A stretch of DNA of 64,000 nt from Hippasteria phrygiana (lineage: Eukaryota; Echinodermata; Asteroidea; Valvatida; Goniasteridae): assembly GCA_037893225.1 (NCBI GenBank), contig JAZGUH010000702.1, positions 868,001 through 932,000 on the forward strand, given 5' to 3'. Of the stretch, positions 1 through 64,000 are shown piece after piece. The notes under the pieces were generated by a model. It was given only the letters and a program-made list of their open reading frames with translations. It did not search any database and was not told the origin of the DNA. The position numbers and the translations under genes were made by a program. Positions within the stretch are counted from its first letter, which is position 1; every line of letters starts with the position of its first letter.

Positions 1-50
1 TCGAGCACATCGCTGAAAAAAATATTTCGAATTTTTTTAACACTCCACGT

Positions 51-70
51 CCAGTTTCGAGCACATCGCT
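51..70 (+). other. Exemplar of the invariant 20-bp core box
   Basis: The 20-mer CCAGTTTCGAGCACATCGCT opens all three length classes and is the most conserved part of the repeat. The variants I saw lie mostly at its 3' edge: CGGTG in some Lb units, CGCTC in Ld, CGCTGG in Lc and CACTT in Le. One internal change (TTTCCAG) occurs at 12165. Conservation across classes that differ elsewhere suggests a protein-binding box or simply the main recombination register. Against the CENP-B box pattern TTCGNNNNANNCGGG it matches TTCG and the CG but not the A or the final GG, so the resemblance is partial. Function is unproven. Confidence 0.8.
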
Positions 71-166
71 GAAAAAAATGTTTCGAATTTTTTTCTCTCC
101 AATTGGCATTTCAACATAACCAACGCGCCTAGCTCGGCGTATGGATTGTTCTGAACACCCCAGGGC
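52..166 (+). repeat. Exemplar L unit, type La (115 bp)
   Basis: It is distinguished by AAAATGTTTCGAA, CTCTCCAATTGG, CATAACC, the GC box as CGCCTAGCTCGGCG and a GGATTGTTCTGAACACCCC tail. GGATTG breaks the outer pair of the palindrome's left arm (GTGTTC becomes TTGTTC). It normally follows S2 or S1. Confidence 0.9.
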
Positions 167-263
167 CAGTTTCGAGCACATCGCTGAAAAAAGTTCCGAA
201 TTTTGTTTCTCTCCAATTGGCATTTCAACAAAACCAACGCGCCTAGCTCGGCGTATGGCACTC
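167..263 (+). repeat. Exemplar M unit, type Ma/Mg (97 bp)
   Basis: It has GAAAAAAGTTCCGAATTTTG followed by TTTCTC. Mg (for example 5558-5654) differs by T for that G, giving T8. Both follow La. The single T/G difference separates HOR-A-type (Ma) from HOR-B-type (Mg) arrays. Confidence 0.88.
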
Positions 264-378
264 CAGTTTCGAGCACATCGCTGAAAAAAAAGTTCCGAAT
301 TTTTTTCTTTTCAATTGCCATTTCAACAAAACCAACGCGCCCAGGGCGGCGTATGGAGTGTTCTGAACACCCAAGGGC
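264..378 (+). repeat. Exemplar L unit, type Lb (115 bp)
   Basis: The parts in order are core, A8, GTTCCGAA, T7, CTTTTCAATTGCC, ATTTCAACAAAACC, GC box CGCCCAGGGCG, TATGG, palindrome GTGTTCTGAACAC and CCAAGGGC. Lb follows nearly every M unit. Hand count gives 29 C, 24 G and 7 CpG in 115 bp, a CpG observed/expected ratio near 1.2. Sub-forms are Lb* (CATTTCAATTG, as at 1133-1247) and Lbt (GGATTG tail, as at 6139-6253). Confidence 0.93.
358..370. repeat. Exemplar of the L-unit palindrome GTGTTCTGAACAC
   Basis: Six-base arms flank one T. It is present in the GAGTG-tailed L units and absent from M and S. The GGATTG-tailed forms (La, Lbt) lose the outermost pair. Function unknown; it could form a short hairpin or bind a dimeric protein. 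Confidence 0.85.
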
Positions 379-436
379 CAGTTTCGAGCACATCGCTGAA
401 AAAAAATATTTCGATTTTTTTTGAAAACCCCACGTC
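379..436 (+). repeat. Exemplar S unit, type S1 (58 bp)
   Basis: The parts are core, A8, TATTTCGA, T8 and GAAAACCCCACGTC. The tail aligns with the end of L (GAACACCCCAGGGC), so S is L with 57 bp removed between the T-tract and the palindrome's right arm. Hand-counted GC is about 36%. Confidence 0.92.
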
Positions 437-534
437 CAGTTTCGAGCACATCGCTGAAAAAAATGTTTCGATTTTTTTTCTCTCCAATTGGCATTTCAAC
501 AAAACCAACGCGCCTAGCTCGGCGTATGGCACTC
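437..534 (+). repeat. Exemplar M unit, type Mb (98 bp)
   Basis: The parts are core, A7, TGTTTCGA, T8, CTCTCCAATTGG, CATTTCAACAAAACC, CGCGCCTAGCTCGGCG, TATGG and CACTC. The L palindrome is absent. Mb follows S1. Confidence 0.9.
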
Positions 535-649
535 CAGTTTCGAGCACATCGCTGAAAAAAAAGTTCCGAATTTTTTTCTTTTCAATTGCCATTTCAACAA
601 AACCAACGCGCCCAGGGCGGCGTATGGAGTGTTCTGAACACCCAAGGGC

Positions 650-747
650 CAGTTTCGAGCACATCGCTGAAAAAAATGTTTCGAATTTTTTTCTCTCCAA
701 TTGGCATTTCAACAAAACCAACGCGCCTAGCTCGGCGTATGGCACTC
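650..747 (+). repeat. Exemplar M unit, type Mc (98 bp)
   Basis: It is like Mb but has TTTCGAATTTTTTT, which creates a TTCGAA (BstBI-type) site. It follows Lb or sits between two Lb units. CAAAAAAACC variants mark one lineage (6.1, 31.2 and 33.2 kb). Confidence 0.9.
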
Positions 748-920
748 CAGTTTCGAGCACATCGCTGAAAAAAAAGTTCCGAATTTTTTTCTTTTCAATT
801 GCCATTTCAACAAAACCAACGCGCCCAGGGCGGCGTATGGAGTGTTCTGAACACCCAAGGGCCAGTTTCGAGCACATCGCTGAAAAAAAATATTTCGATT
901 TTTTTTGAAAACCCCACGTC

Positions 921-1035
921 CAGTTTCGAGCACATCGCTCAAAAAAAATTTTCCAATTTTTTTCTCTCCAATTGGCATTTCAACATAACCAACGCGCCTA
1001 GCTCGGCGTATGGAGTGTTCTGAACACCCCAGGGC
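921..1035 (+). repeat. Exemplar L unit, type Ld (115 bp)
   Basis: It is marked by CGCTCAAAAAAAATTTTCCAA: the core's last G is C and the TTCGAA centre is replaced by AATTTTCCAA, so the A-tract runs directly into Ts. Variants are A9-T3 (7621 region, 20400, 27924, 34461) and A4-T8 (50383, 52802, 55221, 60578). Confidence 0.9.
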
Positions 1036-1132
1036 CAGTTTCGAGCACATCGCTGAAAAAAGTTCCGAATTTTTTTTCTCTCCAATTGGCATTTCAACAA
1101 AACCAACTCGCCTAGCTCGGCGTATGGCACTC
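1036..1132 (+). repeat. Exemplar M unit, type Md (97 bp)
   Basis: It is marked by CCAACTCGCCTAG (T for G in the CGCG box). It follows Ld, Le and some Lc units and is followed by Lb*. Confidence 0.9.
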
Positions 1133-1305
1133 CAGTTTCGAGCACATCGCTGAAAAAAAAGTTCCGAATTTTTTTCATTTCAATTGCCATTTCAACAAAA
1201 CCAACGCGCCCAGGGCGGCGTATGGAGTGTTCTGAACACCCAAGGGCCAGTTTCGAGCACATCGCTGAAAAAAAATATTTCGATTTTTTTTGAAAACCCC
1301 ACGTC

Positions 1306-1419
1306 CAGTTTCGAGCACATCGCTGGAAAAAATGTTTCGAATTTTTTCTCTCCAATTGGCATTTCAACATAACCAACGCGCCTAGCTCGGCGTATGGAGT
1401 GTTCTGAACACCCCAGGGC
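1306..1419 (+). repeat. Exemplar L unit, type Lc (114 bp)
   Basis: It is marked by CGCTGGAAAAAATG and a T6 tract, CATAACC and CACCCCAGGGC. The Lc' sub-form (6312-6425) has CGCTGAAAAAAATG. Lc' occurs in two lineages, CTCTCCAATTGG and CTCTGCAATTGG. Confidence 0.9.
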
Positions 1420-1515
1420 CAGTTTCGAGCACATCGCTGAAAACATTTCCGAATTTTTTTCTCTCCAATTGGCATTTCAACAAAACCAACGCGCCTAGCT
1501 CGGCGTATGGCACTC
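1420..1515 (+). repeat. Exemplar M unit, type Me (96 bp)
   Basis: It is marked by an interrupted A-tract, GAAAACATTTCCGAA. It follows Lc and precedes Le in HOR-A. In HOR-I the same body carries an L tail (49503-49615, 113 bp). Confidence 0.9.
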
Positions 1516-1630
1516 CAGTTTCGAGCACATCACTTAAAAAAAAGTTCCGAATTTTTTTCTCTCCAATTGGCATTTCAACATAACCAACGCGCCTAGCTCG
1601 GCGTATGGAGTGTTCTGAACACCCCAGGGC
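1516..1630 (+). repeat. Exemplar L unit, type Le (115 bp), altered core
   Basis: The core reads CACATCACTTAAAAAAAAG instead of CACATCGCTGAAAAAAAAG, removing the core's second CpG. It follows Me in HOR-A. Other L units with the same CACTTA core are at 11839, 47640, 48079, 57720 and 58159. Confidence 0.9.
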
Positions 1631-2015
1631 CAGTTTCGAGCACATCGCTGAAAAAAGTTCCGAATTTTTTTTCTCTCCAATTGGCATTTCAACAAAACCA
1701 ACTCGCCTAGCTCGGCGTATGGCACTCCAGTTTCGAGCACATCGCTGAAAAAAAAGTTCCGAATTTTTTTCATTTCAATTGCCATTTCAACAAAACCAAC
1801 GCGCCCAGGGCGGCGTATGGAGTGTTCTGAACACCCAAGGGCCAGTTTCGAGCACATCGCTGAAAAAAAATATTTCGATTTTTTTTGAAAACCCCACGTC
1901 CAGTTTCGAGCACATCGCTGAAAAAAATGTTTCGAATTTTTTTCTCTCCAATTGGCATTTCAACATAACCAACGCGCCTAGCTCGGCGTATGGATTGTTC
2001 TGAACACCCCAGGGC

Positions 2016-3864
2016 CAGTTTCGAGCACATCGCTGAAAAAAGTTCCGAATTTTGTTTCTCTCCAATTGGCATTTCAACAAAACCAACGCGCCTAGCTCGG
2101 CGTATGGCACTCCAGTTTCGAGCACATCGCTGAAAAAAAAGTTCCGAATTTTTTTCTTTTCAATTGCCATTTCAACAAAACCAACGCGCCCAGGGCGGCG
2201 TATGGAGTGTTCTGAACACCCAAGGGCCAGTTTCGAGCACATCGCTGAAAAAAAATATTTCGATTTTTTTTGAAAACCCCACGTCCAGTTTCGAGCACAT
2301 CGCTGAAAAAAATGTTTCGATTTTTTTTCTCTCCAATTGGCATTTCAACAAAACCAACGCGCCTAGCTCGGCGTATGGCACTCCAGTTTCGAGCACATCG
2401 CTGAAAAAAAAGTTCCGAATTTTTTTCTTTTCAATTGCCATTTCAACAAAACCAACGCGCCCAGGGCGGCGTATGGAGTGTTCTGAACACCCAAGGGCCA
2501 GTTTCGAGCACATCGCTGAAAAAAATGTTTCGAATTTTTTTCTCTCCAATTGGCATTTCAACAAAACCAACGCTCCTAGCTCGGCGTATGGCACTCCAGT
2601 TTCGAGCACATCGCTGAAAAAAAAGTTCCGAATTTTTTTCTTTTCAATTGCCATTTCAACAAAACCAACGCGCCCAGGGCGGCGTATGGAGTGTTCTGAA
2701 CACCCAAGGGCCAGTTTCGAGCACATCGCTGAAAAAAAATATTTCGATTTTTTTGGAAAACCCCACGTCCAGTTTCGAGCACATCGCTCAAAAAAAATTT
2801 TCCAATTTTTTTCTCTCCAATTGGCATTTCAACATAACCAACGCGCCTAGCTCGGCGTATGGAGTGTTCTGAACACCCCAGGGCCAGTTTCGAGCACATC
2901 GCTGAAAAAAGTTCCGAATTTTTTTTCTCTCCAATTGGCATTTCAACAAAACCAACTCGCCTAGCTCGGCGTATGGCACTCCAGTTTCGAGCACATCGCT
3001 GAAAAAAAAGTTCCGAATTTTTTTCATTTCAATTGCCATTTCAACAAAACCAACGCGCCCAGGGCGGCGTATGGAGTGTTCTGAACACCCAAGGGCCAGT
3101 TTCGAGCACATCGCTGAAAAAAAATATTTCGATTTTTTTTGAAAACCCCACGTCCAGTTTCGAGCACATCGCTGGAAAAAATGTTTCGAATTTTTTCTCT
3201 CCAATTGGCATTTCAACATAACCAACGCGCCTAGCTCGGCGTATGGAGTGTTCTGAACACCCCAGGGCCAGTTTCGAGCACATCGCTGAAAACATTTCCG
3301 AATTTTTTTCTCTCCAATTGGCATTTCAACAAAACCAACGCGCCTAGCTCGGCGTATGGCACTCCAGTTTCGAGCACATCACTTAAAAAAAAGTTCCGAA
3401 TTTTTTTCTCTCCAATTGGCATTTCAACATAACCAACGCGCCTAGCTCGGCGTATGGAGTGTTCTGAACACCCCAGGGCCAGTTTCGAGCACATCGCTGA
3501 AAAAAGTTCCGAATTTTTTTTCTCTCCAATTGGCATTTCAACAAAACCAACTCGCCTAGCTCGGCGTATGGCACTCCAGTTTCGAGCACATCGCTGAAAA
3601 AAAAGTTCCGAATTTTTTTCATTTCAATTGCCATTTCAACAAAACCAACGCGCCCAGGGCGGCGTATGGAGTGTTCTGAACACCCAAGGGCCAGTTTCGA
3701 GCACATCGCTGAAAAAAAATATTTCGATTTTTTTTGAAAACCCCACGTCCAGTTTCGAGCACATCGCTGAAAAAAATGTTTCGAATTTTTTTCTCTCCAA
3801 TTGGCATTTCAACATAACCAACGCGCCTAGCTCGGCGTATGGATTGTTCTGAACACCCCAGGGC
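2016..3864. repeat. HOR-A copy 2 (1,849 bp)
   Basis: It has the same 19-unit order and length as the preceding copy. The differences I spotted are a G-to-T at 2574 (CGCTCCTAG for CGCGCCTAG) and, near 2755, one fewer T followed by an extra G in an S1 unit. Near identity over 1.8 kb points to recent duplication or strong homogenisation. Confidence 0.95.
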
Positions 3865-5117
3865 CAGTTTCGAGCACATCGCTGAAAAAAGTTCCGAATT
3901 TTGTTTCTCTCCAATTGGCATTTCAACAAAACCAACGCGCCTAGCTCGGCGTATGGCACTCCAGTTTCGAGCACATCGCTGAAAAAAAAGTTCCGAATTT
4001 TTTTCTTTTCAATTGCCATTTCAACAAAACCAACGCGCCCAGGGCGGCGTATGGAGTGTTCTGAACACCCAAGGGCCAGTTTCGAGCACATCGCTGAAAA
4101 AAAATATTTCGATTTTTTTTGAAAACCCCACGTCCAGTTTCGAGCACATCGCTGAAAAAAATGTTTCGATTTTTTTTCTCTCCAATTGGCATTTCAACAA
4201 AACCAACGCGCCTAGCTCGGCGTATGGCACTCCAGTTTCGAGCACATCGCTGAAAAAAAAGTTCCGAATTTTTTTCTTTTCAATTGCCATTTCAACAAAA
4301 CCAACGCGCCCAGGGCGGCGTATGGAGTGTTCTGAACACCCAAGGGCCAGTTTCGAGCACATCGCTGAAAAAAATGTTTCGAATTTTTTTCTCTCCAATT
4401 GGCATTTCAACAAAACCAACGCGCCTAGCTCGGCGTATGGCACTCCAGTTTCGAGCACATCGCTGAAAAAAAAGTTCCGAATTTTTTTCTTTTCAATTGC
4501 CATTTCAACAAAACCAACGCGCCCAGGGCGGCGTATGGAGTGTTCTGAACACCCAAGGGCCAGTTTCGAGCACATCGCTGAAAAAAAATATTTCGATTTT
4601 TTTTGAAAACCCCACGTCCAGTTTCGAGCACATCGCTCAAAAAAAATTTTCCAATTTTTTTCTCTCCAATTGGCATTTCAACATAACCAACGCGCCTAGC
4701 TCGGCGTATGGAGTGTTCTGAACACCCCAGGGCCAGTTTCGAGCACATCGCTGAAAAAAGTTCCGAATTTTTTTTCTCTCCAATTGGCATTTCAACAAAA
4801 CCAACTCGCCTAGCTCGGCGTATGGCACTCCAGTTTCGAGCACATCGCTGAAAAAAAAGTTCCGAATTTTTTTCATTTCAATTGCCATTTCAACAAAACC
4901 AACGCGCCCAGGGCGGCGTATGGAGTGTTCTGAACACCCAAGGGCCAGTTTCGAGCACATCGCTGAAAAAAAATATTTCGATTTTTTTTGAAAACCCCAC
5001 GTCCAGTTTCGAGCACATCGCTGGAAAAAATGTTTCGAATTTTTTCTCTCCAATTGGCATTTCAACATAACCAACGCGCCTAGCTCGGCGTATGGAGTGT
5101 TCTGAACACCCCAGGGC
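3865..5117. repeat. HOR-A copy 3, truncated after 13 units
   Basis: The order Ma to Lc of HOR-A is kept for 1,253 bp. Where copies 1 and 2 continue with Me (GAAAACATTTCC), this copy passes to Mf (GAAAAAAGTTCC with CGCCCCTAG), the first unit of HOR-B. The switch lies within the core/A-tract at about 5118-5141, consistent with exchange in register at the conserved core. Confidence 0.92.
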
Positions 5118-5214: not shown

Positions 5215-5329
5215 CAGTTTCGAGCACATCGGTGAAAAAAAAGTTCCGAATTTTTTTCTTTTCAATTGCCATTTCAACAAAACCAACGCGCCCAGGGCGG
5301 CGTATGGAGTGTTCTGAACACCCAAGGGC

Positions 5330-6865: not shown

Positions 6866-8599
6866 CAGTTTCGAGCACATCGCTGAAAAAAGTTCCGAAT
6901 TTTGTTTCTCTCCAATTGGCATTTCAACAAAACCAACGCGCCTAGCTCGGCGTATGGCACTCCAGTTTCGAGCACATCGCTGAAAAAAAAGTTCCGAATT
7001 TTTTTCTTTTCAATTGCCATTTCAACAAAACCAACGCGCCCAGGGCGGCGTATGGAGTGTTCTGAACACCCAAGGGCCAGTTTCGAGCACATCGCTGAAA
7101 AAAAATATTTCGATTTTTTTTGAAAACCCCACGTCCAGTTTCGAGCACATCGCTGAAAAAAATGTTTCGATTTTTTTTCTCTCCAATTGGCATTTCAACA
7201 AAACCAACGCGCCTAGCTCGGCGTATGGCACTCCAGTTTCGAGCACATCGCTGAAAAAAAAGTTCCGAATTTTTTTCTTTTCAATTGCCATTTCAACAAA
7301 ACCAACGCGCCCAGGGCGGCGTATGGAGTGTTCTGAACACCCAAGGGCCAGTTTCGAGCACATCGCTGAAAAAAATGTTTCGAATTTTTTTCTCTCCAAT
7401 TGGCATTTCAACAAAACCAACGCGCCTAGCTCGGCGTATGGCACTCCAGTTTCGAGCACATCGCTGAAAAAAAAGTTCCGAATTTTTTTCTTTTCAATTG
7501 CCATTTCAACAAAACCAACGCGCCCAGGGCGGCGTATAGAGTGTTCTGAACACCCAAGGGCCAGTTTCGAGCACATCGCTGAAAAAAAATATTTCGATTT
7601 TTTTTGAAAACCCCACGTCCAGTTTCGAGCACATCGCTCAAAAAAAAATTTCCAATTTTTTTCTCTCCAATTGGCATTTCAACATAACCAACGCGCCTAG
7701 CTCGGCGTATGGAGTGTTCTGAACACCCCAGGGCCAGTTTCGAGCACATCGCTGAAAAAAGTTCCGAATTTTTTTTCTCTCCAATTGGCATTTCAACAAA
7801 ACCAACTCGCCTAGCTCGGCGTATGGCACTCCAGTTTCGAGCACATCGCTGAAAAAAAAGTTCCGAATTTTTTTCATTTCAATTGCCATTTCAACAAAAC
7901 CAACGCGCCCAGGGCGGCGTATGGAGTGTTCTGAACACCCAAGGGCCAGTTTCGAGCACATCGCTGAAAAAAAATATTTCGATTTTTTTTGAAAACCCCA
8001 CGTCCAGTTTCGAGCACATCGCTGGAAAAAATGTTTCGAATTTTTTCTCTCCAATTGGCATTTCAACATAACCAACGCGCCTAGCTCGGCGTATGGAGTG
8101 TTCTGAACACCCCAGGGCCAGTTTCGAGCACATCGCTGAAAACATTTCCGAATTTTTTTCTCTCCAATTGGCATTTCAACAAAACCAACGCGCCTAGCTC
8201 GGCGTATGGCACTCCAGTTTCGAGCACATCACTTAAAAAAAAGTTCCGAATTTTTTTCTCTCCAATTGGCATTTCAACATAACCAACGCGCCTAGCTCGG
8301 CGTATGGAGTGTTCTGAACACCCCAGGGCCAGTTTCGAGCACATCGCTGAAAAAAGTTCCGAATTTTTTTTCTCTCCAATTGGCATTTCAACAAAACCAA
8401 CTCGCCTAGCTCGGCGTATGGCACTCCAGTTTCGAGCACATCGCTGAAAAAAAAGTTCCGAATTTTTTTCATTTCAATTGCCATTTCAACAAAACCAACG
8501 CGCCCAGGGCGGCGTATGGAGTGTTCTGAACACCCAAGGGCCAGTTTCGAGCACATCGCTGAAAAAAAATATTTCGATTTTTTTTGAAAACCCCACGTC
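6866..8599. repeat. HOR-A copy 4 lacking its final La
   Basis: Eighteen units match HOR-A copy 1 at a constant offset of 6,699 bp, ending with S1 where La would follow. Its Ld unit has A9-T3 (CAAAAAAAAATTTCC) where copies 1-3 have A8-T4. The A9 form is shared with the copies near 20400, 27924 and 34461, so these form a sub-lineage. A G-to-A change gives GTATAGAG near 7538. Confidence 0.93.
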
Positions 8600-9422
8600 C
8601 AGTTTCGAGCACATCGCTGGAAAAAATGTTTCGAATTTTTTCTCTCCAATTGGCATTTCAACATAACCAACGCGCCTAGCTCGGCGTATGGGTGTTCTGA
8701 ACACCCCAGGGCCAGTTTCGAGCACATCGCTGAAAAAAGTTCCGAATTTTTTTTCTCTCCAATTGGCATTTCAACAAAACCAACGCCCCTAGCTCGGCGT
8801 ATGGCACTCCAGTTTCGAGCACATCGCTGAAAAAAAAGTTCCGAATTTTTTTCTTTTCAATTGCCATTTCAACAAAACCAACGCGCCCAGGGCGGCGTAT
8901 GGAGTGTTCTGAACACCCAAGGGCCAGTTTCGAGCACATCGCTGAAAAAAATATTTAGATTTTTTTTGAAAACCCCACGTCCAGTTTCGAGCACATCGCT
9001 GAAAAAAATATTTCGAATTTTTTTAACACTCCACGTCCAGTTTCGAGCACATCGCTGAAAAAAATGTTTCGAATTTTTTTCTCTCCAATTGGCATTTCAA
9101 CATAACCAACGCGCCTAGCTCGGCGTATGGATTGTTCTGAACACCCCAGGGCCAGTTTCGAGCACATCGCTGAAAAAAGTTCCGAATTTTTTTTCTCTCC
9201 AATTGGCATTTCAACAAAACCAACGCGCCTAGCTCGGCGTATGGCACTCCAGTTTCGAGCACATCGCTGAAAAAAAAGTTCCGAATTTTTTTCTTTTCAA
9301 TTGCCATTTCAACAAAACCAACGCGCCCAGGGCGGCGTATGGAGTGTTCTGAACACCCAAGGGCCAGTTTCGAGCACATCGCTGAAAAAAAATATTTCGA
9401 TTTTTTTTGAAAACCCCACGTC
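8600..9422. repeat. HOR-C copy 1 (823 bp, 9 units)
   Basis: Unit order is Lc'' Mf Lb S1b S2 La Mg Lb S1. The Lc'' unit is 113 bp because one A is missing (GTATGGGTGTTC in place of GTATGGAGTGTTC). The deletion recurs 823 bp later, so it predates this tandem duplication. Confidence 0.93.
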
Positions 9423-10245
9423 CAGTTTCGAGCACATCGCTGGAAAAAATGTTTCGAATTTTTTCTCTCCAATTGGCATTTCAACATAACCAACGCGCCT
9501 AGCTCGGCGTATGGGTGTTCTGAACACCCCAGGGCCAGTTTCGAGCACATCGCTGAAAAAAGTTCCGAATTTTTTTTCTCTCCAATTGGCATTTCAACAA
9601 AACCAACGCCCCTAGCTCGGCGTATGGCACTCCAGTTTCGAGCACATCGCTGAAAAAAAAGTTCCGAATTTTTTTCTTTTCAATTGCCATTTCAACAAAA
9701 CCAACGCGCCCAGGGCGGCGTATGGAGTGTTCTGAACACCCAAGGGCCAGTTTCGAGCACATCGCTGAAAAAAATATTTAGATTTTTTTTGAAAACCCCA
9801 CGTCCAGTTTCGAGCACATCGCTGAAAAAAATATTTCGAATTTTTTTAACACTCCACGTCCAGTTTCGAGCACATCGCTGAAAAAAATGTTTCGAATTTT
9901 TTTCTCTCCAATTGGCATTTCAACATAACCAACGCGCCTAGCTCGGCGTATGGATTGTTCTGAACACCCCAGGGCCAGTTTCGAGCACATCGCTGAAAAA
10001 AGTTCCGAATTTTTTTTCTCTCCAATTGGCATTTCAACAAAACCAACGCGCCTAGCTCGGCGTATGGCACTCCAGTTTCGAGCACATCGCTGAAAAAAAA
10101 GTTCCGAATTTTTTTCTTTTCAATTGCCATTTCAACAAAACCAACGCGCCCAGGGCGGCGTATGGAGTGTTCTGAACACCCAAGGGCCAGTTTCGAGCAC
10201 ATCGCTGAAAAAAAATATTTCGATTTTTTTTGAAAACCCCACGTC
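9423..10245. repeat. HOR-C copy 2 (823 bp)
   Basis: It has the same nine-unit order and the same one-base deletion in the L unit as the preceding copy. From 9536 the units also fit HOR-B, which then runs to 10843, so HOR-C looks like a contracted HOR-B. Confidence 0.92.
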
Positions 10246-15765: not shown

Positions 15766-15862
15766 CAGTTTCGAGCACATCGCTGAAAAAAATGTTTCGA
15801 ATTTTTTCTCTCCAATTGGCATTTCAACAAAACCAACGCCCCTAGCTCGGCGTATGGCACTC
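15766..15862. repeat. Chimeric unit Lc'/Mf (97 bp)
   Basis: The first half has the Lc' signature (AAAATGTTTCGAATTTTTTCTC). The second half has the Mf signature (AACAAAACC, CGCCCCTAG, ending GGCACTC). Complete HOR-B has a 114-bp Lc' followed by a 97-bp Mf here, so exactly one unit equivalent (114 bp) was lost by exchange inside the shared CTCTCCAATTGGCATTTCAAC. Confidence 0.88.
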
Positions 15863-16090
15863 CAGTTTCGAGCACATCGCTGAAAAAAAAGTTCCGAATT
15901 TTTTTCTTTTCAATTGCCATTTCAACAAAACCAACGCGCCCAGGGCGGCGTATGGAGTGTTCTGAACACCCAAGGGCCAGTTTCGAGCACATCGCTGAAA
16001 AAAATATTTAGATTTTTTTTGAAAACCCCACGTCCAGTTTCGAGCACATCGCTGAAAAAAATATTTCGAATTTTTTTAACACTCCACGTC

Positions 16091-48200: not shown

Positions 48201-48405
48201 GAGCACATCGCTGAAAAAAGTTCCGAATTTTTTTTCTCTCCAATTGGCATTTCAACAAAACCAACGCCCCTAGCTCGCCGTATGGCACTCCAGTTTCGAG
48301 CACATCGCTGAAAAAAAAGTTCCGAATTTTTTTCTTTTCAATTGCCATTTCAACAAAACCAACGCGCCCAGGGCGGCGTATGGAGTGTTCTGAACACCCA
48401 AGGGC
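45256..48405. repeat. Segment X, copy 1 (3,150 bp)
   Basis: It starts with Mf and an Lb containing TTTATCTTTTC (near 45394), follows HOR-A order from Ma at 45696 to Lb* ending at 47371, then enters a diverged stretch: S1 with CGTTTTTTTTTTAAAACCCCACTTCC (47372), Lc' with CACCACAGGGC (47430), Me with AAAAAATTTCC (47544), L with CATCACTTAAA (47640), Mf Lb S1b S2, a second CACTTA-type L (48079), then Mf with CTCGCCGTATGG (48194). The segment is repeated at 55336-58485, offset 10,080. Confidence 0.92.
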
Positions 48406-49826: not shown

Positions 49827-50111
49827 CAGTTTCGAGCACATCGCTGAAAAAAATATTTAGATTTTTTTTGAAAACCCCACGTCCAGTTTCGAGCACATCG
49901 CTGAAAAAAATATTTCGAATTTTTTTAACACCCCAGGGCCAGTTTCGAGCACATCGCTGAAAAAAATGTTTCGATTTTTTTTGAAAACCCCACGTCCAGT
50001 TTCGAGCACATCGCTGAAAAAAATATTTCGAATTTTTTTAACACTCCACGTCCAGTTTCGAGCACATCGCTGAAAAAAAATATTTCGATTTTTTTTTGAA
50101 AACCCCACGTC
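49827..50111. repeat. Run of five consecutive short units
   Basis: S1b, S2/La chimera, an S with AAAATGTTTCGATT ending GAAAACCCC (57 bp), S2 and a 59-bp S1 follow one another with no M or L between. It is the densest stretch of core boxes in the window, one per about 57 bp. In the other HOR-I copies an La splits this run into two and three. Confidence 0.9.
49884..49939. repeat. S2/La chimera at an exact one-unit deletion
   Basis: S2 normally ends AACACTCCACGTC and La ends GAACACCCCAGGGC. Here the sequence is AACACCCCAGGGCC, so exchange occurred at the shared AACAC. The three other HOR-I copies retain the 115-bp La at this place (52244, 54663 and 60020). Confidence 0.9.
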
Positions 50112-50709
50112 CAGTTTCGAGCACATCGCTGAAAAAAATGTTTCGAATTTTTTTCTCTCCAATTGGCATTTCAACAAAACCAACGCGCCTAGCTCGGCGT
50201 ATGGCACTCCAGTTTCGAGCACATCGCTGAAAAAAAAGTTCCGAATTTTTTTCTTTTCAATTGCCATTTCAACAAAACCAACGCGCCCAGGGCGGCGTAT
50301 GGAGTGTTCTGAACACCCAAGGGCCAGTTTCGAGCACATCGCTGAAAAAAAATATTTCGATTTTTTTTGAAAACCCCACGTCCAGTTTCGAGCACATCGC
50401 TCAAAATTTTTTTTCCAATTTTTGTCTCTCCAATTGGCATTTCAACATAACCAACGCGCCTAGCTCGGCGTATGGAGTGTTCTGAACACCCCAGGGCCAG
50501 TTTCGAGCACATCGCTGAAAAAAGTTCCGAATTTTTTTTCTCTCCAATTGGCATTTCAACAAAACCAACGCCCCTAGCTCGCCGTATGGCACTCCAGTTT
50601 CGAGCACATCGCTGAAAAAAAAGTTCCGAATTTTTTTCTTTTCAATTGCCATTTCAACAAAACCAACGCGCCCAGGGCGGCGTATGGAGTGTTCTGAACA
50701 CCCAAGGGC

Positions 50710-53128: not shown

Positions 53129-55547
53129 CAGTTTCGAGCACATCGCTGAAAAAAATATTTAGATTTTTTTTGAAAACCCCACGTCCAGTTTCGAGCACAT
53201 CGCTGAAAAAAATATTTCGAATTTTTTTAACACTCCACGTCCAGTTTCGAGCACATCGCTGAAAAAAATGTTTCGAATTTTTTTCTCTCCAATTGGCATT
53301 TCAACATAACCAACGCGCCTAGCTCGGCGTATGGATTGTTCTGAACACCCCAGGGCCAGTTTCGAGCACATCGCTGAAAAAAGTTCCGAATTTTGTTTCT
53401 CTCCAATTGGCATTTCAACAAAACCAACGCGCCTAGCTCGGCGTATGGCACTCCAGTTTCGAGCACATCGCTGAAAAAAAAGTTCCGAATTTTTTTCTTT
53501 TCAATTGCCATTTCAACAAAACCAACGCGCCCAGGGCGGCGTATGGAGTGTTCTGAACACCCAAGGGCCAGTTTCGAGCACATCGCTGAAAAAAAATATT
53601 TAGATTTTTTTTGAAAACCCCACGTTCAGTTTCGAGCACATCGCTGAAAAAAATGTTTCGATTTTTTTTCTCTCCAATTGGCATTTCAACAAAACCAACG
53701 CGCCTAGCTCGGCGTATGGCACTCCAGTTTCGAGCACATCGCTGAAAAAAAAGTTCCGAATTTTTTTCTTTTCAATTGCCATTTCAACAAAACCAACGCG
53801 CCCAGGGCGGCGTATGGAGTGTTCTGAACACCCCAGGGCCAGTTTCGAGCACATCGCTGAAAAAAATGTTTCGAATTTGTTTTCTCTCCAATTGGCATTT
53901 CAACAAAACCAACTCGCCTAGCTCGGCGTATGGCACTCCAGTTTCGAGCACATCGCTGAAAAAAAAGTTCCGAATTTTTTTCATTTCAATTGCCATTTCA
54001 ACAAAACCAACGCGCCCAGGGCGGCGTATGGAGTGTTCTGAACACCCAAGGGCCAGTTTCGAGCACATCGCTGAAAAAAAATATTTCGATTTTTTTTGAA
54101 AACCCCACGTCCAGTTTCGAGCACATCGCTGGAAAAAATGTTTCGAATTTTTTCTCTCCAATTGGCATTTCAACATAACCAACGCGCCTAGCTCGGCGTA
54201 TGGAGTGTTCTGAACACCCCAGGGCCAGTTTCGAGCACATCGCTGAAAACATTTCCGAATTTTTTTCTCTCCAATTGGCATTTCAACAAAACCAACGCGC
54301 CTAGCTCGGCGTATGGAGTGTTCTGAACACCCCAGGGCCAGTTTCGAGCACATCGCTGAAAAAAGTTCCGAATTTTTTTTCTCTCCAATTGGCATTTCAA
54401 CAAAACTAACGCCCCTAGCTCGGCGTATGGCACTCCAGTTTCGAGCACATCGCTGAAAAAAAAGTTCCGAATTTTTTCTTTTCAATTGCCATTTCAACAA
54501 AACCAACGCGCCCAGGGCGGCGTATGGAGTGTTCTGAACACCCAAGGGCCAGTTTCGAGCACATCGCTGAAAAAAATATTTAGATTTTTTTTGAAAACCC
54601 CACGTCCAGTTTCGAGCACATCGCTGAAAAAAATATTTCGAATTTTTTTAACACTCCACGTCCAGTTTCGAGCACATCGCTGAAAAAAATGTTTCGAATT
54701 TTTTTCTCTCCAATTGCCATTTCAACATAACCAACGCGCCTAGCTCGGCGTATGGATTGTTCTGAACACCCCAGGGCCAGTTTCGAGCACATCGCTGAAA
54801 AAAATGTTTCGATTTTTTTTGAAAACCCCACGTCCAGTTTCGAGCACATCGCTGAAAAAAATATTTCGAATTTTTTTAACACTCCACGTCCAGTTTCGAG
54901 CACATCGCTGAAAAAAAATATTTCGATTTTTTTTTGAAAACCCCACGTCCAGTTTCGAGCACATCGCTGAAAAAAATGTTTCGAATTTTTTTCTCTCCAA
55001 TTGGCATTTCAACAAAACCAACGCGCCTAGCTCGGCGTATGGCACTCCAGTTTCGAGCACATCGCTGAAAAAAAAGTTCCGAATTTTTTTCTTTTCAATT
55101 GCCATTTCAACAAAACCAACGCGCCCAGGGCGGCGTATGGAGTGTTCTGAACACCCAAGGGCCAGTTTCGAGCACATCGCTGAAAAAAAATATTTCGATT
55201 TTTTTTGAAAACCCCACGTCCAGTTTCGAGCACATCGCTCAAAATTTTTTTTCCAATTTTTGTCTCTCCAATTGGCATTTCAACATAACCAACGCGCCTA
55301 GCTCGGCGTATGGAGTGTTCTGAACACCCCAGGGCCAGTTTCGAGCACATCGCTGAAAAAAGTTCCGAATTTTTTTTCTCTCCAATTGGCATTTCAACAA
55401 AACCAACGCCCCTAGCTCGGCGTATGGCACTCCAGTTTCGAGCACATCGCTGAAAAAAAAGTTCCGAATTTTTATCTTTTCAATTGCCATTTCAACAAAA
55501 CCAACGCGCCCAGGGCGGCGTATGGAGTGTTCTGAACACCCAAGGGC
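53129..55547. repeat. HOR-I copy 3 (2,419 bp)
   Basis: It is the same as copy 2 until about 55263. The last two units (Mf at 55336 with CTCGGCG and Lb with TTTATCTTTTC) are those of segment X, so a switch back to X took place inside the Ld'/Lc' unit just after its T-tract. Confidence 0.93.
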
Positions 55548-58485
55548 CAGTTTCGAGCACATCGCTGAAAAAAATATTTAGATTTTTTTTGAAAACCCCA
55601 CGTCCAGTTTCGAGCACATCGCTGAAAAAAATATTTCGAATTTTTTTAACACTCCACGTCCAGTTTCGAGCACATCGCTGAAAAAAATGTTTCGAATTTT
55701 TTTCTCTCCAATTGGCATTTCAACATAACCAACGCGCCTAGCTCGGCGTATGGATTGTTCTGAACACCCCAGGGCCAGTTTCGAGCACATCGCTGAAAAA
55801 AGTTCCGAATTTTGTTTCTCTCCAATTGGCATTTCAACAAAACCAACGCGCCTAGCTCGGCGTATGGCACTCCAGTTTCGAGCACATCGCTGAAAAAAAA
55901 GTTCCGAATTTTTTTCTTTTCAATTGCCATTTCAACAAAACCAACGCGCCCAGGGCGGCGTATGGAGTGTTCTGAACACCCAAGGGCCAGTTTCGAGCAC
56001 ATCGCTGAAAAAAAATATTTCGATTTTTTTTGAAAACCCCACGTCCAGTTTCGAGCACATCGCTGAAAAAAATGTTTCGATTTTTTTTCTCTCCAATTGG
56101 CATTTCAACAAAACCAACGCGCCTAGCTCGGCGTATGGCACTCCAGTTTCGAGCACATCGCTGAAAAAAAAGTTCCGAATTTTTTTCTTTTCAATTGCCA
56201 TTTCAACAAAACCAACGCGCCCAGGGCGGCGTATGGAGTGTTCTGAACACCCAAGGGCCAGTTTCGAGCACATCGCTGAAAAAAATGTTTCGAATTTTTT
56301 TCTCTCCAATTGGCATTTCAACAAAACCAACGCGCCTAGCTCGGCGTATGGCACTCCAGTTTCGAGCACATCGCTGAAAAAAAAGTTCCGAATTTTTTTC
56401 TTCTCAATTGCCATTTCAACAAAACCAACGCGCCCAGGGCGGCGTATGGAGTGTTCTGAACACCCAAGGGCCAGTTTCGAGCACATCGCTGAAAAAAAAT
56501 ATTTCGATTTTTTTTGAAAACCCCACGTCCAGTTTCGAGCACATCGCTCAAAAAAAATTTTCCAATTTTTTTCTCTCCAATTGGCATTTCAACATAACCA
56601 ACGCGCCTAGCTCGGCGTATGGAGTGTTCTGAACACCCCAGGGCCAGTTTCGAGCACATCGCTGAAAAAAGTTCCGAATTTTTTTTCTCTCCAATTGGCA
56701 TTTCAACAAAACCAACTCGCCTAGCTCGGCGTATGGCACTCCAGTTTCGAGCACATCGCTGAAAAAAAAGTTCCGAATTTTTTTCATTTCAATTGCCATT
56801 TCAACAAAACCAACGCGCCCAGGGCGGCGTATGGAGTGTTCTGAACACCCAAGGGCCAGTTTCGAGCACATCGCTGAAAAAAAATATTTCGATTTTTTTT
56901 GAAAACCCCACGTCCAGTTTCGAGCACATCGCTGGAAAAAATGTTTCGAATTTTTTCTCTCCAATTGGCATTTCAACATAACCAACGCGCCTAGCTCGGC
57001 GTATGGAGTGTTCTGAACACCCCAGGGCCAGTTTCGAGCACATCGCTGAAAACATTTCCGAATTTTTTTCTCTCCAATTGGCATTTCAACAAAACCAACG
57101 CGCCTAGCTCGGCGTATGGCACTCCAGTTTCGAGCACATCACTTAAAAAAAAGTTCCGAATTTTTTTCTCTCCAATTGGCATTTCAACATAACCAACGCG
57201 CCTAGCTCGGCGTATGGAGTGTTCTGAACACCCCAGGGCCAGTTTCGAGCACATCGCTGAAAAAAGTTCCGAATTTTTTTTCTCTCCAATTGGCATTTCA
57301 ACAAAACCAACTCGCCTAGCTCGGCGTATGGCACTCCAGTTTCGAGCACATCGCTGAAAAAAAAGTTCCGAATTTTTTTCATTTCAATTGCCATTTCAAC
57401 AAAACCAACGCGCCCAGGGCGGCGTATGGAGTGTTCTGAACACCCAAGGGCCAGTTTCGAGCACATCGCTGAAAAAAAATATTTCGTTTTTTTTTTAAAA
57501 CCCCACTTCCAGTTTCGAGCACATCGCTGAAAAAAATGTTTCGAATTTTTTCTCTCCAATTGGCATTTCAACATAACCAACGCGCCTAGCTCGGCGTATG
57601 GAGTGTTCTGAACACCACAGGGCCAGTTTCGAGCACATCGCTGAAAAAATTTCCGAATTTTTTTCTCTCCAATTGGCATTTCAACAAAACCAACGCGCCT
57701 AGCTCGGCGTATGGCACTCCAGTTTCGAGCACATCACTTAAAAAAAAGTTCCGAATTTTTTCTCTCCAATTGGCATTTCAACATAACCAACGCGCCTAGC
57801 TCGGCGTATGGAGTGTTCTGAACACCCCAGGGCCAGTTTCGAGCACATCGCTGAAAAAAGTTCCGAATTTTTTTTCTCTCCAATTGGCATTTCAACAAAA
57901 CCAACGCCCCTAGCTCGGCGTATGGCACTCCAGTTTCGAGCACATCGCTGAAAAAAAAGTTCCGAATTTTTTTCTTTTCAATTGCCATTTCAACAAAACC
58001 AACGCGCCCAGGGCGGCGTATGGAGTGTTCTGAACACCCAAGGGCCAGTTTCGAGCACATCGCTGAAAAAAATATTTAGATTTTTTTTGAAAACCCCACG
58101 TCCAGTTTCGAGCACATCGCTGAAAAAAATATTTCGAATTTTTTTAACACTCCACGTCCAGTTTCGAGCACATCACTTAAAAAAAAAGTTCCGAATTTTT
58201 TCTCTCCAATTGGCATTTCAACATAACCAACGCGCCTAGCTCGGCGTATGGAGTGTTCTGAACACCCCAGGGCCAGTTTCGAGCACATCGCTGAAAAAAG
58301 TTCCGAATTTTTTTTCTCTCCAATTGGCATTTCAACAAAACCAACGCCCCTAGCTCGCCGTATGGCACTCCAGTTTCGAGCACATCGCTGAAAAAAAAGT
58401 TCCGAATTTTTTTCTTTTCAATTGCCATTTCAACAAAACCAACGCGCCCAGGGCGGCGTATGGAGTGTTCTGAACACCCAAGGGC
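55336..58485. repeat. Segment X, copy 2 (3,150 bp)
   Basis: It matches 45256-48405 at a constant 10,080-bp offset, including TTTATCTTTTC, the CGTTTTTTTTTT form of S1, CACCACAGGG and both CACTTA-type L units. One difference seen is T-to-C (TTCTCAATTGCC) near 56403. Confidence 0.94.
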
Positions 58486-60904
58486 CAGTTTCGAGCACAT
58501 CGCTGAAAAAAATATTTAGATTTTTTTTGAAAACCCCACGTCCAGTTTCGAGCACATCGCTGAAAAAAATATTTCGAATTTTTTTAACACTCCACGTCCA
58601 GTTTCGAGCACATCGCTGAAAAAAATGTTTCGAATTTTTTTCTCTCCAATTGGCATTTCAACATAACCAACGCGCCTAGCTCGGCGTATGGATTGTTCTG
58701 AACACCCCAGGGCCAGTTTCGAGCACATCGCTGAAAAAAGTTCCGAATTTTGTTTCTCTCCAATTGGCATTTCAACAAAACCAACGCGCCTAGCTCGGCG
58801 TATGGCACTCCAGTTTCGAGCACATCGCTGAAAAAAAAGTTCCGAATTTTTTTCTTTTCAATTGCCATTTCAACAAAACCAACGCGCCCAGGGCGGCGTA
58901 TGGAGTGTTCTGAACACCCAAGGGCCAGTTTCGAGCACATCGCTGAAAAAAAATATTTAGATTTTTTTTGAAAACCCCACGTTCAGTTTCGAGCACATCG
59001 CTGAAAAAAATGTTTCGATTTTTTTTCTCTCCAATTGGCATTTCAACAAAACCAACGCGCCTAGCTCGGCGTATGGCACTCCAGTTTCGAGCACATCGCT
59101 GAAAAAAAAGTTCCGAATTTTTTTCTTTTCAATTGCCATTTCAACAAAACCAACGCGCCCAGGGCGGCGTATGGAGTGTTCTGAACACCCCAGGGCCAGT
59201 TTCGAGCACATCGCTGAAAAAAATGTTTCGAATTTGTTTTCTCTCCAATTGGCATTTCAACAAAACCAACTCGCCTAGCTCGGCGTATGGCACTCCAGTT
59301 TCGAGCACATCGCTGAAAAAAAAGTTCCGAATTTTTTTCATTTCAATTGCCATTTCAACAAAACCAACGCGCCCAGGGCGGCGTATGGAGTGTTCTGAAC
59401 ACCCAAGGGCCAGTTTCGAGCACATCGCTGAAAAAAAATATTTCGATTTTTTTTGAAAACCCCACGTCCAGTTTCGAGCACATCGCTGGAAAAAATGTTT
59501 CGAATTTTTTCTCTCCAATTGGCATTTCAACATAACCAACGCGCCTAGCTCGGCGTATGGAGTGTTCTGAACACCCCAGGGCCAGTTTCGAGCACATCGC
59601 TGAAAACATTTCCGAATTTTTTTCTCTCCAATTGGCATTTCAACAAAACCAACGCGCCTAGCTCGGCGTATGGAGTGTTCTGAACACCCCAGGGCCAGTT
59701 TCGAGCACATCGCTGAAAAAAGTTCCGAATTTTTTTTCTCTCCAATTGGCATTTCAACAAAACTAACGCCCCTAGCTCGGCGTATGGCACTCCAGTTTCG
59801 AGCACATCGCTGAAAAAAAAGTTCCGAATTTTTTCTTTTCAATTGCCATTTCAACAAAACCAACGCGCCCAGGGCGGCGTATGGAGTGTTCTGAACACCC
59901 AAGGGCCAGTTTCGAGCACATCGCTGAAAAAAATATTTAGATTTTTTTTGAAAACCCCACGTCCAGTTTCGAGCACATCGCTGAAAAAAATATTTCGAAT
60001 TTTTTTAACACTCCACGTCCAGTTTCGAGCACATCGCTGAAAAAAATGTTTCGAATTTTTTTCTCTCCAATTGCCATTTCAACATAACCAACGCGCCTAG
60101 CTCGGCGTATGGATTGTTCTGAACACCCCAGGGCCAGTTTCGAGCACATCGCTGAAAAAAATGTTTCGATTTTTTTTGAAAACCCCACGTCCAGTTTCGA
60201 GCACATCGCTGAAAAAAATATTTCGAATTTTTTTAACACTCCACGTCCAGTTTCGAGCACATCGCTGAAAAAAAATATTTCGATTTTTTTTTGAAAACCC
60301 CACGTCCAGTTTCGAGCACATCGCTGAAAAAAATGTTTCGAATTTTTTTCTCTCCAATTGGCATTTCAACAAAACCAACGCGCCTAGCTCGGCGTATGGC
60401 ACTCCAGTTTCGAGCACATCGCTGAAAAAAAAGTTCCGAATTTTTTTCTTTTCAATTGCCATTTCAACAAAACCAACGCGCCCAGGGCGGCGTATGGAGT
60501 GTTCTGAACACCCAAGGGCCAGTTTCGAGCACATCGCTGAAAAAAAATATTTCGATTTTTTTTGAAAACCCCACGTCCAGTTTCGAGCACATCGCTCAAA
60601 ATTTTTTTTCCAATTTTTGTCTCTCCAATTGGCATTTCAACATAACCAACGCGCCTAGCTCGGCGTATGGAGTGTTCTGAACACCCCAGGGCCAGTTTCG
60701 AGCACATCGCTGAAAAAAGTTCCGAATTTTTTTTCTCTCCAATTGGCATTTCAACAAAACCAACGCCCCTAGCTCGCCGTATGGCACTCCAGTTTCGAGC
60801 ACATCGCTGAAAAAAAAGTTCCGAATTTTTTTCTTTTCAATTGCCATTTCAACAAAACCAACGCGCCCAGGGCGGCGTATGGAGTGTTCTGAACACCCAA
60901 GGGC
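58486..60904. repeat. HOR-I copy 4 (2,419 bp)
   Basis: It follows segment X copy 2 just as HOR-I copy 1 follows X copy 1, but keeps the La that copy 1 has lost, so offsets change from 10,080 to 10,195 after about 60010. All HOR-I marks are present. Confidence 0.94.
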
Positions 60905-61402
60905 CAGTTTCGAGCACATCGCTGAAAAAAATATTTAGATTTTTTTTGAAAACCCCACGTCCAGTTTCGAGCACATCGCTGAAAAAAATATTTCGAATTT
61001 TTTTAACACTCCACGTCCAGTTTCGAGCACATCGCTGAAAAAAATGTTTCGAATTTTTTTCTCTCCAATTGGCATTTCAACATAACCAACGCGCCTAGCT
61101 CGGCGTATGGATTGTTCTGAACACCCCAGGGCCAGTTTCGAGCACATCGCTGAAAAAAGTTCCGAATTTTGTTTCTCTCCAATTGGCATTTCAACAAAAC
61201 CAACGCGCCTAGCTCGGCGTATGGCACTCCAGTTTCGAGCACATCGCTGAAAAAAAAGTTCCGAATTTTTTTCTTTTCAATTGCCATTTCAACAAAACCA
61301 ACGCGCCCAGGGCGGCGTATGGAGTGTTCTGAACACCCAAGGGCCAGTTTCGAGCACATCGCTGAAAAAAAATATTTCGATTTTTTTTGAAAACCCCACG
61401 TC
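60905..61402. repeat. Partial HOR-I leading into HOR-G
   Basis: S1b, S2, La, Ma and Lb match the start of HOR-I. The next S1 (61345) is the ordinary TATTTCG/CACGTCC form instead of the TATTTAG/CACGTTC form of HOR-I, marking the change of lineage. Confidence 0.9.
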
Positions 61403-62271
61403 CAGTTTCGAGCACATCGCTGAAAAAAATGTTTCGATTTTTTTTCTCTCCAATTGGCATTTCAACAAAACCAACGCGCCTAGCTCGGCGTATGGCACTC
61501 CAGTTTCGAGCACATCGCTGAAAAAAAAGTTCCGAATTTTTTTCTTTTCAATTGCCATTTCAACAAAACCAACGCGCCCAGGGCGGCGTATGGAGTGTTC
61601 TGAACACCCAAGGGCCAGTTTCGAGCACATCGCTGAAAAAAATGTTTCGAATTTTTTTCTCTCCAATTGGCATTTCAACAAAACCAACGCGCCTAGCTCG
61701 GCGTATGGCACTCCAGTTTCGAGCACATCGCTGAAAAAAAAGTTCCGAATTTTTTTCTTTTCAATTGCCATTTCAACAAAACCAACTCGCCCAGGGCGGC
61801 GTATGGAGTGTTCTGAACACCCAAGGGCCAGTTTCGAGCACATCGCTGAAAAAAAATATTTCGATTTTTTTTGAAAACCCCACGTCCAGTTTCGAGCACA
61901 TCGCTCAAAAAATATTTTCCAATTTTTTTCTCTCCAATTGGCATTTCAACATAACCAACGCGCCTAGCTCGGCGTATGGGGTGTTCTGAACACCCCAGGG
62001 CCAGTTTCGAGCACATCGCTGAAAAAAGTTCCGAATTTTTTTTCTCTCCAATTGGCATTTCAACAAAACCAACTCGCCTAGCTCGGCGTATGGCACTCCA
62101 GTTTCGAGCACATCGCTGAAAAAAAAGTTCCGAATTTTTTTCATTTCAATTGCCATTTCAACAAAACCAACGCGCCCAGGGCGGCGTATGGAGTGTTCTG
62201 AACACCCAAGGGCCAGTTTCGAGCACATCGCTGAAAAAAAATATTTCGATTTTTTTTGAAAACCCCACGTC
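61403..62271. repeat. HOR-G copy 1 (869 bp, 9 units)
   Basis: Unit order is Mb Lb Mc Lb S1 Ld Md Lb* S1. Ld has the GGGGTGTTC tail (61978) and, only here, CAAAAAATATTTTCC in the A-tract. The second Lb has AACTCGCCCAG near 61786, also found at 16.6 kb and 23.9 kb. Confidence 0.93.
61978..61996. repeat. Extended perfect palindrome
   Basis: Same 19-bp palindrome in the Ld of HOR-G copy 1. Confidence 0.93.
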
Positions 62272-63140
62272 CAGTTTCGAGCACATCGCTGAAAAAAATG
62301 TTTCGATTTTTTTTCTCTCCAATTGGCATTTCAACAAAACCAACGCGCCTAGCTCGGCGTATGGCACTCCAGTTTCGAGCACATCGCTGAAAAAAAAGTT
62401 CCGAATTTTTTTCTTTTCAATTGCCATTTCAACAAAACCAACGCGCCCAGGGCGGCGTATGGAGTGTTCTGAACACCCAAGGGCCAGTTTCGAGCACATC
62501 GCTGAAAAAAATGTTTCGAATTTTTTTCTCTCCAATTGGCATTTCAACAAAACCAACGCGCCTAGCTCGGCGTATGGCACTCCAGTTTCGAGCACATCGC
62601 TGAAAAAAAAGTTCCGAATTTTTTTCTTTTCAATTGCCATTTCAACAAAACCAACGCGCCCAGGGCGGCGTATGGAGTGTTCTGAACACCCAAGGGCCAG
62701 TTTCGAGCACATCGCTGAAAAAAAATATTTCGATTTTTTTTGAAAACCCCACGTCCAGTTTCGAGCACATCGCTCAAAAAAAATTTTCCAATTTTTTTCT
62801 CTCCAATTGGCATTTCAACATAACCAACGCGCCTAGCTCGGCGTATGGGGTGTTCTGAACACCCCAGGGCCAGTTTCGAGCACATCGCTGAAAAAAGTTC
62901 CGAATTTTTTTTCTCTCCAATTGGCATTTCAACAAAACCAACTCGCCTAGCTCGGCGTATGGCACTCCAGTTTCGAGCACATCGCTGAAAAAAAAGTTCC
63001 GAATTTTTTTCATTTCAATTGCCATTTCAACAAAACCAACGCGCCCAGGGCGGCGTATGGAGTGTTCTGAACACCCAAGGGCCAGTTTCGAGCACATCGC
63101 TGAAAAAAAATATTTCGATTTTTTTTGAAAACCCCACGTC
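62272..63140. repeat. HOR-G copy 2 (869 bp)
   Basis: It has the same nine units. Its Ld again has the GGGG tail (62847) but the ordinary A8-T4 tract, and its Lb is the common AACGCGCCC form. Confidence 0.93.
62847..62865. repeat. Extended perfect palindrome
   Basis: Same 19-bp palindrome in the Ld of HOR-G copy 2, 869 bp after the preceding one. Confidence 0.93.
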
Positions 63141-64000
63141 CAGTTTCGAGCACATCGCTGAAAAAAATGTTTCGATTTTTTTTCTCTCCAATTGGCATTT
63201 CAACAAAACCAACGCGCCTAGCTCGGCGTATGGCACTCCAGTTTCGAGCACATCGCTGAAAAAAAAGTTCCGAATTTTTTTCTTTTCAATTGCCATTTCA
63301 ACAAAACCAACGCGCCCAGGGCGGCGTATGGAGTGTTCTGAACACCCAAGGGCCAGTTTCGAGCACATCGCTGAAAAAAATGTTTCGAATTTTTTTCTCT
63401 CCAATTGGCATTTCAACAAAACCAACGCGCCTAGCTCGGCGTATGGCACTCCAGTTTCGAGCACATCGCTGAAAAAAAAGTTCCGAATTTTTTTCTTTTC
63501 AATTGCCATTTCAACAAATCCAACGCGCCCAGGGCGGCGTATGGATTGTTCTGAACACCCAAGGGCCAGTTTCGAGCACATCGCTGAAAAAAAATATTTC
63601 GATTTTTTTTGAAAACCCCACGTCCAGTTTCGAGCACATCGCTGAAAAAAATGTTTCGAATTTTTTCTCTCCAATTGGCATTTCAACATAACCAACGCGC
63701 CTAGCTCGGCGTATGGAGTGTTCTGAACACCCCAGGGCCAGTTTCGAGCACATCGCTGAAAAAAGTTCCGAATTTTTTTTCTCTCCAATTGGCATTTCAA
63801 CAAAACCAACGCCCCTAGCTCGGCGTATGGCACTCCAGTTTCGAGCACATCGCTGAAAAAAAAGTTCCGAATTTTTTTCTTTTCAATTGCCATTTCAACA
63901 AAACCAACGCGCCCAGGGCGGCGTATGGAGTGTTCTGAACACCCAAGGGCCAGTTTCGAGCACATCGCTGAAAAAAATATTTAGATTTTTTTTGAAAACC
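63141..64000. repeat. HOR-B-like tail, cut by the window end
   Basis: The order is Mb Lb Mc Lbt S1 Lc' Mf Lb S1b. The first three units continue HOR-G; from Lbt on it is HOR-B. The final S1b is cut after 50 bp. A private A-to-T gives CAAATCCAACG near 63519. Confidence 0.92.

Follow-up and report, generated by a model that had tools for sequence, protein, structure and literature searches.

Satellites with several nested levels of higher-order repetition have long been described, and growth by the copying and deletion of whole-unit blocks is thought to be common to many centromere repeats of animals and plants. Here we describe a satellite array from the asteroid Hippasteria phrygiana that fills the whole of a 64,000-nucleotide stretch (GenBank assembly GCA_037893225.1, contig JAZGUH010000702.1, positions 868,001 to 932,000 of the forward strand), referred to below as the window. 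The array is uninterrupted and nested, with 683 complete units in three length classes. Very likely it grew as whole-unit blocks were duplicated, deleted and converted in register, guided by homology. In little space it documents, with unusual clarity, the formation of higher-order repeats (HORs): the three length classes serve as natural markers that make duplications, deletions and chimeric units visible and allow them in part to be ordered. With the genome and reads at hand, models of satellite growth (in-register exchange as against break-induced replication, and the size of the copied block) would become directly testable.

Comparison with described satellites

In ape alpha-satellite DNA, HORs within which unit types recur have been defined as cascading, while in Willard-type HORs each type occurs once (PMC12428378). 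The present array is like the cascading HORs and superHORs of that study in its recurring unit types, its long n-mers and its copies that are less than 1% divergent. By the published definition the seven tandem HORs of the window are of the cascading type, as every one of them repeats a unit type (7/7; BKJAHCEMA, for example, has A twice) and none (0/7) carries each type only once. Alpha-satellite monomers measure about 171 bp (PMC8336445), whereas the units found here are 56-116 bp long and come in three lengths; furthermore, the orangutan Y array holds hundreds of HOR copies (PMC12428378), against two to three copies per HOR in the window.

An earlier note, made from the letters of the window, held that classical HOR satellites use monomers of a single length. 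This does not agree with published work: human cenX was reported to contain 16 infrequent monomers, 9 hybrids and 7 with large indels (PMC8336445), and in the 112-64 dimers of the mouse minor satellite, which showed moderate CENP-A enrichment, the higher-order unit joins two monomer lengths (PMC10880262). Higher-order units of mixed monomer length are thus already known, and the mechanism needs no new category. As described, the mouse 112-64 repeat has two units, whereas three lengths are combined here in HORs of 9-35 units and in longer blocks (PMC10880262). Among the matches listed from the open-licence literature and in excerpts of a few papers, no case of three length classes within HORs of 9-35 units was noticed.

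Other systems were compared by description. Arabidopsis CEN180 likewise grows by in-frame indels of whole monomers and short conversion tracts; unlike the array, it is a 178-bp satellite whose HORs are mostly of 2 or 3 monomers (PMC12321929). The Lathyrus sativus satellite FabTR-2, which is associated with centromeric chromatin, also has a short monomer and several HOR patterns, and these vary among its arrays; it differs in having one 49-bp consensus (PMC7004042). The Box 1 and 19-bp-box satellites of Meloidogyne resemble the array in carrying a short conserved box within otherwise variable units and in forming HORs, and are set apart by monomers of 169-170 bp (two table rows) and by satellites with identities down to 32% (PMC3694981, PMC9673304). 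Monomers of 99-411 bp in HOR arrays were described for the Drosophila ananassae subgroup (PMC11917152), hybrid monomers are mentioned in PMC4496801, and monomers of different lengths in PMC6429384.

The sequence family itself may be undescribed, judging by comparison with prokaryote, viral, plasmid, phage and protein collections and with the text of papers. Exact 23-mer scans of the prokaryote and viral contig collections gave 0 matches each, and megablast of positions 1-4000 against plasmids and phages gave none. When 18 unit words of 14-20 letters were looked up in the full texts of papers, only single 14-mers were met, one in each of five papers that, by their listings and the openings of their abstracts, are on other subjects (among them yeast replication, piggyBac vectors and lysine acetylation). 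The author of the earlier note did not recognise the family, and at the sensitivities used this holds as far as those collections reach.

Units, their order and the larger blocks

Cutting the array at the conserved start of the unit, with mismatches allowed, gave 684 sites and 683 whole units; CAGTTTCGAG was counted 683 times on the plus strand of the window and 0 times on the minus strand. Among 5467 self-alignments at 96% identity or more none was to the minus strand, and no foreign insert was seen within the 64 kb. The window thus holds what defines a satellite, tandem units placed head to tail in a single orientation over tens of kilobases. The units fall into class S (56-59 bp, n=195), class M (96-99 bp, n=190) and class L (113-116 bp, n=298), with 0/683 outside these ranges. 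The earlier note had read units of about 58, 97 and 115 bp in a multi-level nested satellite with an A/T-tract core, and this is borne out.

Alignment of the 33 unit types that occur in at least four copies revealed a common first part of about 46 bp. It opens with a 20-bp start that hardly varies, followed by an A-tract, a centre resembling TTCGAA and a T-tract. In the L class this core is followed by a 50-bp middle and a 22-bp tail. In M units the middle is present and the tail is replaced by CACTC, and in S units the middle is absent and the core is fused to a 13-14-bp end resembling the end of the L tail. Since S and M align to L minus its middle or its tail, the length classes do not look like independent monomers but like a single monomer that has twice lost an internal part. 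The full palindrome GTGTTCTGAACAC lies in the tail of 245/298 L units and in 0/190 M and 0/195 S units. The 683 units represent only 74 distinct sequences; 622 of them belong to the 33 common ones and 24 are unique. Clustering at 1, 2 or 3 edits gives 20, 13 or 9 groups. The earlier estimate of about 15 sub-types is a fair one. Types of the L class differ from one another by up to 18 edits in 115 bp. Rare variants that differ by a single edit appear rich in transversions, of which there are 21 beside 5 transitions (p 0.09 against one third).

The order of the units is strongly non-random. The longest repeated string is 50 units long. In 200 shuffles the corresponding length averaged 4.4 and never exceeded 6, and in 300 order-1 Markov strings it rose no higher than 22; the Lempel-Ziv (LZ) parse of the unit string has 77 phrases, as against at least 259 in the shuffles and at least 125 in the Markov strings. 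Periodicity above the monomer, on which the earlier note had staked its account, is present: base autocorrelation has its highest peak, 0.435, at 385 bp (the length of L+M+L+S), and did not exceed 0.355 in three shuffles of unit order. When the array was cut after each run of S units, 149 words were obtained, 114 of which were LMLS (53, the commonest S-ended word, 385 bp), MLMLS (34) or LMLSS (27). An M unit is followed by an L unit in 190/190 cases, and this is true of all 10 M types.

It could be proposed that selection keeps the three lengths and the fixed M-then-L order because they set the spacing of nucleosomes or of the kinetochore, L+S being 173 bp, M+L 212 bp and LMLS 385 bp, about two nucleosomes. 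Such a role would be consistent with the invariant M-L order, with the autocorrelation maximum at the length of the LMLS word, and with the AA/TT spectrum of the window, which rises to 27 times mean power at 96 bp and to 5.1 times at 11 bp (the latter value without a null). At 10.0-10.5 bp, however, AA/TT power is just 0.9-1.6 times the mean. In addition, the copying of a few founder blocks gives the M-L rule without selection, and the 190 cases are therefore not independent. We regard selection on spacing as quite unlikely. In a bolder form, unit length would itself be a code: a single monomer in its three lengths would obey a fixed grammar (M standing before L only, S closing the words) that sets chromatin spacing, and the grammar and not the bases alone would be copied up four nested levels. 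This we consider very unlikely.

HOR calling on the string of unit types gave seven tandem HORs present in roughly two copies or more, of 9-35 units and 823-3,272 bp (Table 1). The earlier note had listed nine HOR types; the size range and the existence of ordered HORs stand, and the count of nine depends on the threshold (44 base-level tandem alignments are found at 97% identity or more) and was not reproduced as such. The seven behave as HORs should, in that multi-unit blocks with periods above 1 kb are more alike (98.1-99.25%) than the units inside a block. A Re-Pair grammar of the unit string, with 77 rules, added nothing beyond the HOR caller. The domain of the 2419-bp HOR (48846-60692) contains eight private types of unit (Z and a to g), all copies of which start between 48846 and 60578. 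With unit types that occur nowhere else in the window, this domain resembles a separate layer.

Above the HORs are blocks whose copies lie about 7.3 and 10.1 kb apart. Of the two duplications of about 7 and 10 kb in the earlier note, it can be said that both are real and that their copies are not simple duplicates, as they differ by internal indels. The copies of the 7-kb block align at a shift of 7252 and then of 7523, and it is here that the longest exact repeat of the window, 3,398 bp at 15802 and 23055, is located. The 10-kb block continues past its left part at a shift of about 7778 (50324-54316 against 58102-62093), a change due to the smaller number of 2419-bp HOR copies in the second copy. 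A further copy, which the earlier note had not listed and which has a wider spacing than either block, was found at a shift of 38,830 (3691-8950 against 42523-47779; 5,261 bp, 99.4%).

Table 1. Positions of the array, its example units, tandem HORs, large blocks and chimeric units in the window
Feature	Position	Strand	Basis or remark
Continuous head-to-tail satellite array, 683 complete units and partial ends	1..64000	+	unit cutting, self-alignment
Example L unit, 115 bp, type E: 20-bp start, A-tract/TTCGAA/T-tract core, 50-bp middle, 22-bp tail	52..166	+	alignment
Example M unit, 97 bp, unit type lettered L: tail replaced by CACTC	167..263	+	alignment
Example S unit, 58 bp, type B: middle block absent, 14-bp L-tail-like end	379..436	+	alignment
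19-unit tandem HOR, 1849 bp, 2.7 copies	52..5117	+	HOR calling, self-alignment
9-unit tandem HOR, 823 bp, 2.1 copies	8542..10245	+	HOR calling
22-unit tandem HOR, 2016 bp, 2.05 copies	30101..34189	+	HOR calling
23-unit tandem HOR, 2177 bp, 2.0 copies	36150..40561	+	HOR calling
35-unit tandem HOR, 3272 bp, 2.0 copies, 99.6% identical	38327..44870	+	HOR calling, self-alignment
27-unit tandem HOR, 2419 bp, 2.5 copies	49940..55987	+	HOR calling, self-alignment
9-unit tandem HOR, 869 bp, 2.4 copies	61345..63451	+	HOR calling
7-kb block, first copy	15751..22823	+	self-alignment: pieces 3484 bp at 99.7%, 3866 bp at 98.8%
7-kb block, second copy, longer mainly by 271 bp	23003..30364	+	self-alignment
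10-kb block, left part, first copy	44870..49982	+	99.7% identical to 54949-60062
10-kb block, left part, second copy	54949..60062	+	self-alignment, shift 10079
Chimeric unit U, 115 bp: A prefix 109 nt, S-type suffix 32 nt; deletion footprint in first 7-kb copy	19091..19205	+	
Undeleted counterpart of U: units A-B-D-S, 386 bp, second 7-kb copy	26344..26729	+	
Chimeric unit b, 113 bp: M-type prefix 91 nt, L-type suffix 49 nt	49503..49615	+	

Exchange footprints and the probable growth of the array

The clearest footprint of exchange lies in the 7-kb block. The main difference between its two copies is 271 bp, which is exactly the units B+D+S, and where the second copy has A-B-D-S the first has the single unit U, an exact chimera with A on the left and S-type sequence on the right. 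Loss of the whole of B+D+S with a chimera left in its place is the expected product of one in-register exchange. Opposite U, the right-hand unit of the second copy is not the S consensus but a variant that was assigned to type S. Exact one-crossover chimeras make up 7/24 of the distinct units that lie at least 2 edits from every unit at least as common. As no unit length is out of register (0/683), the junctions of the copied blocks must have kept the frame. In Arabidopsis mutation-accumulation lines, in-frame indels of 1-31 monomers and conversion tracts shorter than one monomer have been recorded (Dong et al. 2025, via PMC12321929); the footprints seen here match that pattern, which we count in favour of in-register duplication and conversion. 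The whole-unit make-up of the seven HORs and the exact repeats of up to 3,398 bp count in its favour too, as does the greater likeness of tandem copies at long periods. The mean identity of tandem alignments is 98.1% at periods of 1.0-1.5 kb (n=7), 98.7% at 1.5-2.1 kb (n=5) and 99.25% at 2.1-3.5 kb (n=5); below 1 kb the bin means are 96.1-97.0% (n=209), with 96.1% at 0.3-0.6 kb (n=107).

From these observations the following course of events may be suggested. Two deletions in an L-like monomer would have given rise to S and M, first mixed blocks of S, M and L units would then have been copied in register, and later, larger copies would have been laid over the earlier ones. The copying could have proceeded by unequal sister exchange or by break-induced replication.

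Several points weigh against this account of growth. The majority of the divergent units (17/24) are no simple chimeras, and the 32-nt suffix of U also fits types O and K, so that its partner is known by position and not by sequence. When all 226 tandem alignments are taken together, identity and period show no significant rank correlation (rho 0.09, p 0.18), and the idea that larger repeats are younger therefore rests on the 17 alignments with periods above 1 kb. Sister exchange and break-induced replication are not separable from this sequence. An assembler that repeated or dropped blocks could also have produced part of the hierarchy, and exact repeats of up to 3,398 bp are indeed hard for an assembler to place. 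The differences between copies are nested, however: the domain of the 27-unit HOR contains unit types of its own, and a clean deletion of three units distinguishes the 7-kb copies. Random error is also low, given the share of units that fall in the 33 exact sequences with four or more copies. We thus think it very doubtful that the hierarchy is partly an assembly artefact, and growth by in-register copying, deletion and conversion of whole-unit blocks is strongly preferred.

Chromosomal setting, coding capacity and composition

The array would be expected to be heterochromatic, and pericentromeric or centromeric regions are its likely candidate locations. A more specific proposal is that it forms a CENP-A-bearing centromere core, with the conserved 20-bp start serving as a box for protein binding much as the CENP-B box does. 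The first 19 bp are identical in 660/683 units, and polymorphic columns are less frequent in the start (4/20) than in the middle and tail (36/72; Fisher p 0.02); the start was, however, picked as cut site for its conservation, which biases this unplanned column test in its favour. Recently homogenised HORs are, moreover, typical of centromeres (PMC12321929). Read on the minus strand, the start region agrees with the human CENP-B box at 11/17 bases in 381 places and at 10/17 in 298, with 6/9 essential bases; in matching bases this is as much as the "CENP-B box-like" motifs of Meloidogyne show (10-12 of 17; PMC3694981). This likeness is at the level of chance. When one LMLS word was shuffled 300 times with its dinucleotides kept, 174 shuffles reached 11/17 and 118 reached both values, and in 200 shuffles the mean best essential score was 6.9, higher than the 6 of the start region. 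Other offsets in the unit also reach 10/17. A CENP-B box as found in CENP-B-binding satellites would have all nine essential bases, whereas the best score anywhere in the window is 7/9, at 9 places. Because shuffles score as well, the likeness was given no weight, and the CENP-B box reading of the start region was rejected. Five of the 33 common unit types were predicted to fold weakly as DNA (z -1.06 to -1.58, only slightly better than shuffles), which speaks against the centromere-core proposal and led us to reject a hairpin or cruciform reading as well. A centromere core with a conserved binding box is accordingly a tentative proposal, which we hold to be possible and somewhat doubtful.

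The telomeric or subtelomeric composite repeats of root-knot nematodes, which are likewise complex, stranded and built from elements of differing length (PMC10844300, PMC10630426), offer another model. The elements of M. incognita share a 66-bp seed, whereas the S units of the array are 56-59 bp long (the seed was compared by length only), and runs of G in the M. incognita repeat are predicted to fold into G-quadruplexes (G4), whereas 0 G4 patterns were found on either strand of the array. Six telomere motifs, four canonical ones and the M. hapla 16-mers (taken from PMC12643312), had 0 matches on both strands. A telomeric or subtelomeric composite repeat is for these reasons extremely unlikely.

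The array is taken to be non-coding. There are 127 open frames of at least 120 amino acids on both strands, the longest of 574 amino acids, built from the repeated units. Since they occur on both strands and many are repeated along with the unit copies, the listed open frames are likely chance products. A search of the protein collection with one translated frame (window positions 315-905) returned 2569 candidates sharing words and 0 at E 0.001; in the window, 0 tRNA genes and 0 Rfam families at gathering thresholds were found. The G+C content is 44%, with no N, and the GC skew is steady at about -0.16 to -0.19. CpG is in excess in the window (observed/expected 1.36) and TpA is strongly depleted (0.24), so that the loss of CpG that long methylation would be expected to cause is not in evidence.

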